Positions 10,660 to 25,507 of a stretch of 33,260 nucleotides of DNA are shown in pieces. Position 1 is the first letter of the stretch. Each line of letters begins with the position of its first letter. The notes under the pieces were generated by a model that was not told the DNA's origin, did no database searches, and saw nothing but the letters and a program-made list of their open reading frames with translations. Where the stretch lies: assembly GCA_029258915.1 (NCBI GenBank), contig JAPDJU010000013.1, positions 1-33,260 of the forward strand, given 5' to 3'. The stretch comes from Thermoproteota archaeon. GTDB taxonomy: Archaea; Thermoproteota; Thermoprotei_A; EX4484-217-1. Position numbers and translations under genes: made by a program.

Positions 10660-10863
10660 TTAAAGTAGAGCATTATAGGAAACATGTTTAAATAAACCTT
10701 TATAACCGTTCACCTCTTCCGTAGCTTTGTGTATCAAATTATATCTTTCTATACATGCTACGGAAGGTTCATCACGGTTTATTATCCTCCAAGCCCACCC
10801 TGCGGCTCCAGAGAGGTTTCTGTAATCCCCAGAGCCATCGGCGAACTTGGATTCATCAAAGAC
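10660..10863 (-). pseudogene. Relic of a TnpB C-terminus (GC-rich, no start)
   Basis: An open minus-strand stretch of 67 codons without a start codon, much richer in G+C than its surroundings. It contains ADGSGDYRNLSGAAGWAW. The DGS...(A)AG pattern and the matching DNA (GGCGATGG ... GCCGCAGG) resemble the tail of the IS607 TnpB in this window (GDGSHAPNSAG; GGTGATGG ... TCCGCAGG). It runs into the stem-loop at 10705-10773 as the IS607 tnpB runs into its own. I read it as the 3' end of a lost minus-strand tnpB; an unrelated structured RNA gene is the alternative. Confidence 0.45.
10705..10773 (-). ncRNA. Solo TnpB guide-RNA-like stem-loop (copy A)
   Basis: Minus strand 5' to 3': GATGAAC, left arm CTTCCGTAGC (10757-10766), an inner pair ATGTAT/ATACAC-like, right arm GCTACGGAAG (10716-10725), then GGTGAACGGT (10705-10714). 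The 10-base arms are perfectly complementary. The same layout with different arms is found at 23906-23964 and 24199-24264. No complete tnpB lies on this strand here. Possible guide-like sequence would start at 10704 going left. RNA expression is not shown. Confidence 0.5.
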
Positions 10864-10921
10864 TCATAGCCCTCATTATCTCATCAGGCTCAGTATACAC
10901 CAGATGTCTTATATACGAGAT

Positions 10922-10930
10922 GTTATATAA
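10922..10930 (+). promoter_or_regulatory. TATA box for the RHH/TnpB-like pair
   Basis: GTTATATAA is centred about 23 bases before the ATG at 10949, and GAGGGTTATC directly before that ATG gives a ribosome-binding site. The pair therefore has its own promoter. Confidence 0.5.
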
Positions 10931-10948
10931 GTATTTCTGAGGGTTATC

Positions 10949-11104
10949 ATGGTTAAGAAGACTATTGATATACCTGATGAGCTTTGGGAGGAGTTCATGC
11001 TTAGAGCGGTAAAGAAGTTTGGATACTATGGTGCTATTAAGAAAGCTGTAAGAGAGGCAATTGAGTTATGGCTAGAAAGAGAGAGAAAATTAAGCCCACA
11101 ATAA
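10949..11104 (+). CDS. Short ribbon-helix-helix-like protein upstream of a TnpB-like gene
   Basis: A 51-residue protein. MVKKTIDIPDELWEEFMLRA is a typical ribbon-helix-helix opening (strand then helix), followed by GYYGAIKKAVREAIELWLER, a second amphipathic helix. GAGG lies 7 bases before the ATG. Its last 37 bases overlap the TnpB-like gene in another frame, so the two are translated from one message. It may repress the element or act as a partner of the nuclease-like protein; this is inference. Confidence 0.7.
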   Translation: MVKKTIDIPDELWEEFMLRAVKKFGYYGAIKKAVREAIELWLERERKLSPQ

Positions 11105-12114
11105 TCGGGAGGTTAACCATTAGTAGACCTGAAGATAGAGCTTGGCTTTTACTCCTTATGAGGAAGTTTAGAGAAGCAATAGAAATGGCACATCACCTAC
11201 TAAGAAAAGGATTAAAAGAAAGTGAAGTTAAGAGGAGAATAACAAAATACCTATCAAATGCTTGGTACTCAACTTCAGCTATTAAGAGAGCTAAGCTATA
11301 TCTTAATCAACCATATTTGAAGTTAAGGAAACCACAACTATTCTCAGTTGGAAGTAGAGATGAGAAAGGTAATAGAAATATTAAGCTAGTTAGTACAAGT
11401 GAAGTTCTAATTAAAATACCTCATGCAACTGGGGAACATAGTTGGCTTAAAGCTAGAGTTAAATTCGGAGAAAAACACATACCTATAATCAGAGAATTAG
11501 CTACAGGAAACTACAGTTATGGAGCTAGTATAGTATTAAAGGAGAAGAATAAAGAATTCCCTTTCTACCTTCACCTCCACGTCCCACTCGAACTCTACAT
11601 TAAATACATGAGAAAGGAGTCTGAAGCTAAGATAATGGGGCATATTGCTGGTTTTGATTTTAACCCTGATAGAATATGCATGGTAATAATAGACCAGAAC
11701 GGTATAATTAGAGATGTAAGGAATGAGCATTTCCCAGAGGTTACATCACATGGATTTTCAAGAGATAAAGCTAGAACTGTTAGGAGAGAAGCGGTCGCTA
11801 AGCTAGTTAAGTATGCTAGAGAGCATGGAGTAAAATACTACGTTATTGAAGACCTATCCAAACCAAAACCCAAAGGTACAAGGACTGCAAAGAGGAAGAT
11901 ATCTAGAATGGCTTTAAGAGAGTTTATACAGCAAATGGAAGTACTAGTGCCTAAAGTGGATGGAGTATTAATTAAAGTCAACCCAGCATACTCATCAGTA
12001 AGTGCTAGGATAATAGCAGAAGACCTAGGTTTAGACATTCACACAGCATCAGCATACATAATAGCACTAAGAAGCATAAAAAGATACGCAACGACACAGA
12101 AAGTTATAACCTAA
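11068..12114 (+). CDS. TnpB-related RuvC-fold protein without zinc finger
   Basis: A 348-residue OrfB/TnpB relative. RuvC-like acidic residues are all visible: Asp197 (IAGFDFNPDRICMVIID), Glu261 (YYVIEDLSKPK) and Asp323 (LGLDIHTASAYIIALR). The CxxC...CxxC zinc finger that TnpB has between the NP..S motif (VNPAYSSVSA, about 304-313) and the last Asp is absent, with only about 10 residues in between. There is no tnpA transposase beside it. It is preceded by an overlapping RHH gene and followed 20 bases later by the tail of a thi4 gene. Known TnpB proteins are RNA-guided nucleases; this zinc-finger-less branch is less studied. Confidence 0.8.
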   Translation: MARKREKIKPTIIGRLTISRPEDRAWLLLLMRKFREAIEMAHHLLRKGLKESEVKRRITKYLSNAWYSTSAIKRAKLYLNQPYLKLRKPQLFSVGSRDEKGNRNIKLVSTSEVLIKIPHATGEHSWLKARVKFGEKHIPIIRELATGNYSYGASIVLKEKNKEFPFYLHLHVPLELYIKYMRKESEAKIMGHIAGFDFNPDRICMVIIDQNGIIRDVRNEHFPEVTSHGFSRDKARTVRREAVAKLVKYAREHGVKYYVIEDLSKPKPKGTRTAKRKISRMALREFIQQMEVLVPKVDGVLIKVNPAYSSVSARIIAEDLGLDIHTASAYIIALRSIKRYATTQKVIT

Positions 12115-12135
12115 AGTTTCTGCCCCTTACTTGTA

Positions 12136-12426
12136 ATGTGCAAAGCTGTAGTAGATGCGACAGGACATGATGCTGAAGTGTTAAGTGTTGCTTCCAGGAA
12201 AATACCTGAATTTAACCTGCAACTTATCGGAGAAAAATCAGCATATTCAAGTATTGGCGAAAAACTTGTCGTAGAAAATTCAGGTAGAGTTGTTCCGGGA
12301 CTTTACGTTGCAGGTATGGCAGTTGCAGCTCTCCATGGAACACCTAGAATGGGACCAATATTTGGAGGTATGCTTCTTTCAGGGAAAAAAGTAGCGGAAG
12401 CTATACTATCAGATGTTAAAGGTTAA
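12136..12426 (+). pseudogene. C-terminal fragment of thiazole synthase (Thi4) / ribose-1,5-bisphosphate isomerase-like protein
   Basis: The last 96 residues of a Thi4-family protein of about 260: [20 protein letters not shown], then [20 protein letters not shown] and [18 protein letters not shown], which are the family's conserved C-terminal motifs. The FAD/NAD-binding N-terminal half is not present anywhere in the window. The match starts about 20 bases after the TnpB-like stop codon, so the gene looks cut off by the mobile pair, with loss of its first two thirds. A short in-frame ATG exists but the fragment should not be active. Confidence 0.85.
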
Positions 12427-23062: not shown

Positions 23063-24046
23063 ATGCTGTTAATGATTCCCTTGCTAGGCGCTTTGCTTAG
23101 TGGTTTTATCTGTGGTATGCTTGGATACTATGTTCAAAGGTATGGTGTTACAACATTAAGTTTCACAATAGCGCACTCCGCATTAGCTGGCGCTGCAATA
23201 TCTCTTGTTCTAGGATTTAATACTACGCTGTTCACACTATTCTTTGCTGTAGCATCAGCTTTACTCATAGGCTATTTAACAAGTAAATCACCTATAAGGC
23301 GTGAGCTAATTTGCATGGGCCTATTCTCCTTATTAAACGCAGTAGCTATTCTAATGCTCTACATGTCAAGCACCAACGTACTATCCACAGTACAGTTATC
23401 AACCATACTATGGGGTAGTGTACTAGCAATAACTTGCGAGAAAATAATTGCCATAGTGACTATAGCAGCGACTTTTCTAGTATATGCTGTAATTTTTAAG
23501 CCGCAAATAGATGCAATACTTTTTGATCAGAAATTAGCTGAAGCAGAAGGAGTTAATGTAAAATTGCACAGTACAATACTTCTACTCTTTGTAGGCTCAG
23601 CAATAGCCATAATCCTTAGAATAACAGGCGGTTTCCTTGTTTTCTCTCTACTGTATAACCCTGTTGCATCGGCTTTACTATTGTCAAAGAGAGCAAATAT
23701 TCAGCAACTAATTTCACCTATACTAGGAAGCAGCGTTGCAATTGCAGGTCTTTTCGCTAGTTTCATGTATAACTTACCTGTTGGAGCATCAATAGCTCTA
23801 CTATCATCAGTTACTCTTCTACTATCTTACGTTTCAAGAGTTACGATAAATTACATGCTAGCACAGCGAAGCGTACGGAGCAAAGAAGGTATTGGGGAAG
23901 CTTTTACCGTTCACCTAAACCGTGTCCTCATCTATCAAAATGTATCAGACACTGTTAGGTTCATTACAGTCCCCGCTGAGCTACCTACGGGAACAGGGCT
24001 CCCCTCAGAAACCCAGCGGTCACCAATAAATTTATTAGATTCATAA
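23063..24046 (+). CDS. ABC-3 type metal permease, ZnuB-like, with foreign C-terminal tail
   Basis: 327 residues with about eight membrane helices and the family's central pattern (LSFTIAHSALAGAAISLVLG, LWGSVLAIT, AEAEGVNVKLHS, TGGFLVFSLLYNPVASALLL). Membrane helices end near residue 263 (VTLLLSYVSRVTINYM). The last 47 residues, from about 281, are read antisense through the relic transposon end described at 23906-24047, so this tail is not of permease origin. The core should still be able to transport. Last gene of the operon. Confidence 0.85.
   Translation: MLLMIPLLGALLSGFICGMLGYYVQRYGVTTLSFTIAHSALAGAAISLVLGFNTTLFTLFFAVASALLIGYLTSKSPIRRELICMGLFSLLNAVAILMLYMSSTNVLSTVQLSTILWGSVLAITCEKIIAIVTIAATFLVYAVIFKPQIDAILFDQKLAEAEGVNVKLHSTILLLFVGSAIAIILRITGGFLVFSLLYNPVASALLLSKRANIQQLISPILGSSVAIAGLFASFMYNLPVGASIALLSSVTLLLSYVSRVTINYMLAQRSVRSKEGIGEAFTVHLNRVLIYQNVSDTVRFITVPAELPTGTGLPSETQRSPINLLDS
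23906..23964 (-). ncRNA. Solo TnpB guide-RNA-like stem-loop (copy B)
   Basis: Minus strand: ATGAAC (23959-23964), left arm ACCTAACAGTGTC (23948-23960), loop with TTTGATA, right arm GACACGGTTTAGGT (23913-23926), then GGTGAACGGT (23906-23915). The arms pair with one bulge/mismatch region. From TTTGATA to GGTGAACGGT the spacing (17 bases) and the final ten bases equal copy A. It lies inside the 3' end of the ABC permease gene, on the other strand. Confidence 0.5.
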
Positions 24047-24047: not shown

Positions 24048-24198
24048 TTTACAAGTTTTAAAGGCATACAGCTTCAGCACATATCTTAGCATTAAGATAT
24101 CTAGGACTCAAAACCAAAACAAGTAATTAAAAGTATTGTAGAAATAATTAAAAGTCACGCAACTAGCCCTCCATTTTCAGAGCTAATTAGCCCTACTA

Positions 24199-24390
24199 AC
24201 CGTTCCTCCCTAGGTGGTCATTTCAATTATTTTATATAAGTTCATGATCACACCTAGGGGTTCCACCTCGCCCATAGGGATTTAGGTATCCCTATGGGGT
24301 CATGGGTGGCATTCGTCTCCAACGGCATGGGAGACACATCTACGTTACTTCCTGCGGAGTTCGGAGCATGGCTCCCATCACCCCGCAGGG
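24199..24390 (-). ncRNA. Candidate omega/re RNA scaffold at the 3' end of tnpB (contains copy C)
   Basis: Known TnpB guide RNAs start in the last part of tnpB and end in the right end of the element. Here, on the minus strand, I see GGAGC/GCTCC and TCTCC/GGAGA hairpins near 24310-24375, a perfect 10-base stem TCCCTATGGG/CCCATAGGGA pattern (24271-24280 with 24289-24298, loop 8), then copy C: GGAACC (24259-24264), arm CCTAGGTG (24251-24258), loop, arm CACCTAGG (24209-24216), GGAACGGT (24199-24206). The guide would read onward from 24198 to lower numbers. Transcription is not shown. Confidence 0.55.
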
Positions 24391-25507
24391 CTTTGAAAAG
24401 CAAGTTCCAGCAAGCAACAGCATCTCGATGCCAAAATTCTCCTCCCTTACTACACTTACCAATCCTAGAACCATTACTGTAGGTTATTGGAGCATTGTGA
24501 ATTGGGCATAGTTTTGATGTATTCCTTGGATTAACATATATTACTGGTACGCCATACTCTCTAGCCTTTTCCTCTATTGCCCTCTGAATACCTCTGAAAC
24601 TCGCTTGAAATATCCTATGACGTAGCTGTTTATCCTTTATCCTCTTTATCATGTTATTAGCTACATGTTTACCCAACTTCTCAAGAACTATGGCATATTG
24701 TTTCTCATAGGCAGTCTTAACGATTATGTTAGCTATCTTCCATTTAATATCAAGTTTCTTTTTCCTCTCCTTTAGTTTCCTCACAGCCTTCCTCTTAATC
24801 CTAGATTTCTTACCATATAATTTATCGTATTTTTCCTGAATCCTTTTCCTACGGTAATAGTATCCGAGTACGAGCTTCTCAGTATTGGTTTCAAAGAGGA
24901 AGGTTAAGTTATCAACTAGTACGGTAACATTGTTTTCGTTAACGTCAACTGGTATGTAGCCCCTAGGCTTATACTCTTCAACCTCTTTAATGAAAGATAG
25001 GTAGATAACTAACTGTCTACTCCTCTTATCAAGCTTTACCTTAGTTTCACTAGCTAGCTTCCAACCACAATTAATGTATTTCCAATACTGTTTATGAGGT
25101 TCAAAGTCCACTGTTATCCATCCCTTGTGGGTAACCACCTTGATCGATGTTAGCCCATTAGGCTTCCATAGGTGGTTGTCAAGCCAGATACTGACCTTCC
25201 TAACCTCTGGGTAATCACTCTCAGCTAGTCCTAGTTTCTTTAACCGTAAGAAGCTCCTAACCCTAGTACTAGCGTCTTGACATGCCGTGTAGACGTAGTG
25301 TGAAGGTAGTTGAGGGTAGAGACCCCTCATTTCACGGTACTTTAATGCTTTGAGCCTAGTGAAGCTCCTAATACTATTTCTAACAGCGTATATTACAAGT
25401 TGTTTGACCATATTACGATACATACCTTCAAGCTCAACGAAGACTCCGAATATCCTTCTAGTTAACTTAATGCTCCTAACTATGACTATTCTAACTACTC
25501 TAGTCAT
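24254..25507 (-). CDS. tnpB: TnpB of the IS607 element (RNA-guided nuclease family)
   Basis: 417 residues. RuvC residues are Asp188 (YIPVDVNENNVTV), Glu276 (YAIVLEKLGKHVA) and Asp362 (FWHRDAVACWNLL). The zinc-finger region is the crenarchaeal variant SKLCPIHNAP ... GKCSKGGEFWHRD, with C334, H337 and C352 and no fourth cysteine. After the RuvC domain a 45-residue tail (RGDGSHAPNSAGS and on) is encoded by the structured DNA that should also give the guide RNA. Its ATG overlaps the end of tnpA. Relatives cut DNA at guide-matched sites and help the element persist. Confidence 0.88.
   Translation of the reverse strand: MTRVVRIVIVRSIKLTRRIFGVFVELEGMYRNMVKQLVIYAVRNSIRSFTRLKALKYREMRGLYPQLPSHYVYTACQDASTRVRSFLRLKKLGLAESDYPEVRKVSIWLDNHLWKPNGLTSIKVVTHKGWITVDFEPHKQYWKYINCGWKLASETKVKLDKRSRQLVIYLSFIKEVEEYKPRGYIPVDVNENNVTVLVDNLTFLFETNTEKLVLGYYYRRKRIQEKYDKLYGKKSRIKRKAVRKLKERKKKLDIKWKIANIIVKTAYEKQYAIVLEKLGKHVANNMIKRIKDKQLRHRIFQASFRGIQRAIEEKAREYGVPVIYVNPRNTSKLCPIHNAPITYSNGSRIGKCSKGGEFWHRDAVACWNLLFKALRGDGSHAPNSAGSNVDVSPMPLETNATHDPIGIPKSLWARWNP

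Follow-up and report, generated by a model that had tools for sequence, protein, structure and literature searches.

The 33,260-nt stretch of Thermoproteota DNA analysed here (contig JAPDJU010000013.1; hereafter, the window) carries a mobile element in which a small ribbon-helix-helix (RHH)-like ORF and a zinc-finger-less TnpB-like gene are preceded, on the other strand, by a divergent structured RNA (Table 1). We propose, at a probability of roughly 70%, that this RNA is a guide of the OMEGA type which has become separate from the nuclease ORF and sits at the other end of the element.

Table 1. Positions in the window of the element, its parts and the related loci.
Feature	Position	Strand	Basis
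Whole mobile element, 1,421 bp	10706..12126	.	Boundaries by comparison with other copies
Flank immediately 3′ of RNA scaffold, putative guide position	10686..10705	-	Identity step 0.98 to 0.29 in multi-copy genome
Structured guide-like RNA, ~196 nt	10706..10901	-	Fold z −5.0; covariance-model core 10706-10854, 69.8 bits, E 8e-17
Kink-turn-like motif, 3′ strand GGU-GA-ACGG, also element end	10706..10714	-	Sequence read directly; boundary comparison
Terminal hairpin, 31-nt loop (hairpin of the initial annotation)	10719..10763	-	Compensatory changes at 13/13 pairs of helix 4 across homologues
Kink-turn-like motif, 5′ strand CCGU-GAU-GA-ACC	10766..10777	-	Sequence read directly; helix 3
Archaeal promoter motif of the RNA, AAATACTTATA	10926..10936	-	Motif in 28/32 homologous RNAs, 1.6 expected
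Small ORF, 51 aa, ribbon-helix-helix-like	10949..11104	+	tblastn conservation
Zinc-finger-less TnpB-like nuclease, 348 aa, D197/E261/D323 kept	11068..12114	+	Homologue alignment, predicted fold
Element far end (GGGGCAGAAACTTTAGGTTATAACTTTCTG)	12091..12126	-	Aligned with G030 and L139 ends
Flank, C-terminal half of thi4	12127..12426	+	N-terminal half not found in genome
Second RNA copy, solo	23907..24021	-	77.6 bits, E 6e-19
TnpB-like C-terminus remnant beside second RNA copy	24062..24124	+	tblastn 71% identity, E 7e-7
Predicted RNA domain, end of IS607 tnpB, for comparison	24201..24400	-	Fold z −6.9; weak model match, 10.6 bits

A conserved structured RNA at the element end

The initial annotation had singled out a perfect-armed hairpin within a guide-RNA-like locus; the hairpin was confirmed and the guide-RNA-like reading supported. 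No second pair like the 7-nt arms (CCGTAGC/GCTACGG) exists in the window, 100 shuffles giving an expectation of 0.00, and the hairpin is the 3′ domain of a longer structured RNA that folds on the minus strand at −66.5 kcal/mol (z = −5.0). Because MAFFT alignments shift one window base in the outer helix, a covariance model was made from five other loci with the window left out; it recovered this RNA and one further copy in the window. In the homologues, a spacer separates the middle hairpin (UUCGCCGA.GG...CCGUAGG.GGG) from a terminal helix, CCGU-GAU-GA-ACC[stem-loop]GGU-GA-ACGG, which has the sequence pattern of a kink-turn; read from that pattern, the RNA core is predicted to hold a kink-turn-like motif. 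The 31-nt loop (10726-10756) contains a GATAYA-like unit every ~10 bases, also present in loci L040 and L016.

Covariation confirmed the structure. In a structure-fitted alignment of 41 RNA sequences, 92.0% of paired cells were compatible with pairing (64.1% shuffled, at most 51.4% slid), both-sided changes occurred at 28 of 31 pairs, double changes in the helices numbered 274 against 79 in shuffles, and the covariation score reached 0.573 (0.168 shuffled, at most 0.12 slid). An unfitted MAFFT alignment still gave double changes at 12 of 19 pairs. A BRE/TATA-like motif was detected 21-41 nt upstream of the chosen RNA 5′ ends at 28 of 32 loci, where 1.6 were expected, whilst a sigma-type promoter and terminator scan of the locus, a type of scan unsuited to archaea, returned no match. 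Searching the window against Rfam gave no family at gathering score, RAGATH-18 included. Sulfolobales elements nevertheless have Rfam RF02814, Sso133, as the middle domain of their RNA; the window copy falls below the threshold of this family, and the entry as retrieved names no partner or function. Sso133 was reportedly first found experimentally in Sulfolobus solfataricus.

The hairpins might instead act as DNA, marking the transposon ends for recognition by a transposase, and their position exactly at the element end and the retention of both ends by deletion derivatives would suit such a role. We regard this as improbable, as G-U pairs are tolerated in the helices and are the commonest pair at three paired positions of the alignment, a preference that indicates an RNA rather than a DNA hairpin. 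Against it also stand the archaeal promoter motif ~35 nt upstream of the RNA, the status of the Sulfolobales version as a named sRNA in Rfam, and IS607-type recombination itself, under which single-strand hairpins have no reason to exist.

A 67-codon relic had also been read into the locus, as the decayed coding part of a vanished TnpB element of which only the solo right end remained. The minus strand does hold an open frame of ~66 codons (frame 1), yet the homologous RNAs (196, 193, 179, 210, 180 and 196 nt) carry stops in almost every frame, with the single stop-free frame confined to L003. Base pairs rather than codons are kept, and a coding relic was rejected since no frame is conserved among homologues. 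The reported likeness to the tail of the IS607 tnpB stands at the DNA level. The two stretches form similar hairpins, which is better accommodated by a shared guide-RNA-like architecture than by shared protein sequence. The open frame and this resemblance are what speak for an orphan right-end RNA attached to the decayed remains of a canonical tnpB tail; with an intact, divergent TnpB-like gene in the same element, matching element ends and no conserved frame, we consider that origin highly implausible. The IS607 tnpB end itself displays a kink-turn-like pattern, CCACC-CAU-GA-CCCC..GGGC-GA-GGUGG.

Element boundaries and insertion sites

The left boundary of the element was set by homology to ..GGTGAACGG ends, and the right boundary, GGGGCAGAAAC..AACTTTCTG on the minus strand, is common to the far ends of the elements in a complete genome (G030) and to a solo copy (L139). 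Since the window copy ends in GGGGCAGAAAC...CTTTCTG at 12126, the element spans 10706-12126. In all RNA-bearing copies examined, the RNA was divergent from and 5′ of the operon, rather than on the same strand after the tnpB-like gene, and the divergent three-part unit was present at nearly all full-length homologues examined, across dozens of genomes of archaea from hot environments. Eleven of the 12 Sulfolobales loci compared were discrete ~1.5 kb units that share their ends but occupy different sites; the remaining locus (L075) is without the RNA end.

Among the Sulfolobales and G030 copies compared, the 3′ end of the RNA coincides with the element boundary; across the G030 copies, mean pairwise identity falls from 0.98 over the last ten scaffold bases to 0.29 over the next ten. 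Empty sites in relatives of genomes carrying homologous elements, as distinct from the window copy, revealed clean insertion with no target duplication, as for IS607, which follows a rule of insertion at GG without duplication (PMC6188088). A G-run directly preceded the guide-side flank at four of five G030 empty sites, in keeping with IS607-type insertion at GG, and was absent from the fifth, whilst the Sulfolobales insertion core on the RNA strand is CC, not GG, so that a G-rich motif is not universal. The geometry comprises a boundary, a flank and a candidate opposite-end motif (a G-run in one subfamily, a different one in Sulfolobales). That the flank would serve as guide is suggested by analogy with TnpB, whose reRNA takes its last bases from flanking DNA and whose target is the donor joint left by excision (PMC8612924).

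On a further reading, the RNA is regulatory (antisense) and governs transposition instead of guiding a nuclease. Screens in Sulfolobus recovered L7Ae-bound RNAs as well as RNAs lying opposite transposase genes (PMC3432209), and the latter were proposed as transposon regulators, as far as the work of Tang 2005 is relayed in PMC3432209. The RNA described here, however, is divergent and does not overlap the genes of its own element, always has its 3′ end at the boundary, and persists in copies that have lost the genes, all of which make an antisense role unlikely.

No serine-recombinase TnpA ORF lies within 10706-12126, TnpA being present elsewhere in the same genome, and no match to IS607 TnpA was obtained in G030, which holds eleven element copies (L141-L151). 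Relatives of the TnpB-like protein were not found among viral contigs, phages or plasmids, giving no sign of a viral vehicle.

A zinc-finger-less TnpB-like nuclease co-occurring with the RNA

The D/E/D triad of the TnpB-like protein (D197, E261 and D323) was invariant in 27 of 27 homologues, and none of the 27 contained a CxxC motif of the zinc finger in the RuvC insertion. Pfam gave nothing significant for this protein and NCBIfam only sub-threshold TnpB matches. Its AlphaFold2 model (pLDDT 85.5) matched Cas12f1 best, with residues 7-348 aligned (Z 21.1), and most of its length also aligned with Cas12k, ISDra2 TnpB (Z 15.1) and ISFba1 TnpB (Z 13.3). The 51-aa ORF itself had no significant match in a family search; ORFs at the matching place in homologous loci are of RHH or MazE/AbrB type, one matching RHH_6 (9e-5) and another MazE_antitoxin (7e-9).

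Of 229 genomes of the class, 73 carry homologues of the nuclease, and further homologues come from other classes of the phylum. The RNA and the TnpB-like protein occur together in 40 of the 51 RNA-bearing genomes, against 16.3 expected; kinship among genomes renders the corresponding P of 4e-15 too small, and the co-occurrence counts as support rather than proof. Together with residence in the same element, it strengthens the link to the zinc-finger-less neighbour that had been raised as a possibility, and it points to this TnpB-like family as partner, whilst the IS607 TnpB suggested alongside it found no support.

The window copy and its relatives

On its far side the window element interrupts thi4, whilst on the guide side it adjoins unrelated sequence. 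Since the sequence adjoining the guide side does not supply the missing half of thi4, this copy has undergone deletion or rearrangement, and its present guide is consequently not the original and cannot match the original site. No empty site was found for it, no near relative carrying the interrupted thi4 locus. The window copy may be a decayed selfish element, no longer working even if the family RNA is a guide, which would be compatible with our preferred explanation for the family. The halved thi4, its other half gone, and the presence in the same genome of a TnpB-like copy disrupted by a stop and a frame change would agree with such decay; the window copy itself, however, has intact ORFs, an intact RNA fold and promoter motif and both of its ends, and we judge loss of function to be a minority prospect.

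Searching the same genome with the RNA stretch yielded two further copies. In one (L002) the RNA is again divergent from an RHH-like ORF and a TnpB-like gene, the latter broken; the other copy (L003) is solo. The second RNA copy in the window lies at the end of ORF 23063-24046, next to the IS607 element. Solo RNA copies comprise this one, two more loci in the genome and nine of the eleven copies in G030, where two copies have the gene (1.31 kb) and nine are miniatures of ~0.3 kb that keep both ends, the promoter motif and the RNA.

Proposed mechanism

Taken as an OMEGA-like guide system, the ~1.4 kb element would comprise two divergent transcription units. One would produce the structured RNA ending at the element's own end, so that the transcript runs into flanking DNA; the other would encode the small DNA-binding protein and the zinc-finger-less TnpB-like RuvC nuclease. 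The nuclease most likely binds the RNA scaffold and, by analogy with TnpB, the flank-derived 3′ tail most likely acts as the guide, with which the enzyme would most likely cut the empty insertion site beside a short motif. Cleavage of empty sites would favour retention of the element. An IS607-type serine recombinase acting in trans probably provides transposition, and the divergent promoter region that both units share may be under the control of the RHH/MazE-like protein.

Because guide and nuclease transcription are separated in this family, dispersed guides could be used in trans. The earlier suggestion of guides acting in trans is reasonable for true solo copies. Somewhat more speculatively, the scattered guide-only miniatures could be dispersed guides used in trans by a few TnpB-like proteins, one nuclease policing many insertion sites; we hold this as a tentative idea, a little short of even odds.

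Relation to known systems

The layout looks like a mirror-image version of RNA-guided TnpB systems. Like IS607 TnpB with its RAGATH-18-derived reRNA (PMC11061315), this element family has an end-of-element RNA with a flank in guide position and a predicted kink-turn, a TnpB fold, a candidate G/AG-rich target motif in one subfamily and, among homologous copies, insertion at GG without duplication (PMC6188088). The IS607 RNA lies downstream of tnpB, however, whereas here it is upstream on the other strand with its own promoter motif, in an element that has no TnpA and no zinc finger but an additional small DNA-binding ORF. ISDra2 TnpB (PMC8612924) likewise shares the guide-position flank at the RNA 3′ end and a near full-length fold match, but its reRNA overlaps the tnpB 3′ end, its motif is TTGAT and it transposes by the IS200/IS605 route. 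Of the features that define OMEGA/TnpB systems, the RuvC catalytic triad, the fold and an RNA 3′ end at the boundary are present, whereas the zinc finger and a same-strand RNA overlapping or following the tnpB 3′ end are absent. Cas12f is the best fold match, but the element bears a single RNA and no CRISPR array occurs among the repeats listed for the window. At another locus (L081 4498-5989), a CRISPR array lies ~1 kb from an element copy.

Repeats of ~260 nt in Staphylothermus marinus, which resemble the sequence found ahead of single-ORF IS607-type transposase genes, were called MITEs in 2009 (PMC2678158). Going by the published description, these probably belong to the same family as the window element, although they were described as MITEs only and an RNA or guide role was not recognised. 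No paper tying such RNAs to a TnpB-like protein was found in the open-access literature and, judged on that literature, the divergent-RNA layout may be new within the OMEGA/TnpB kind; an earlier description elsewhere is possible.

If the proposal is true, a compact family of zinc-finger-less nucleases, widespread in one archaeal phylum, would have its guide RNA as a separate gene, and the orphan Rfam RNA Sso133 would be assigned a partner. Some archaeal MITEs would be explained as mobile guide genes, and the family would offer a source of thermostable small RNA-guided enzymes.
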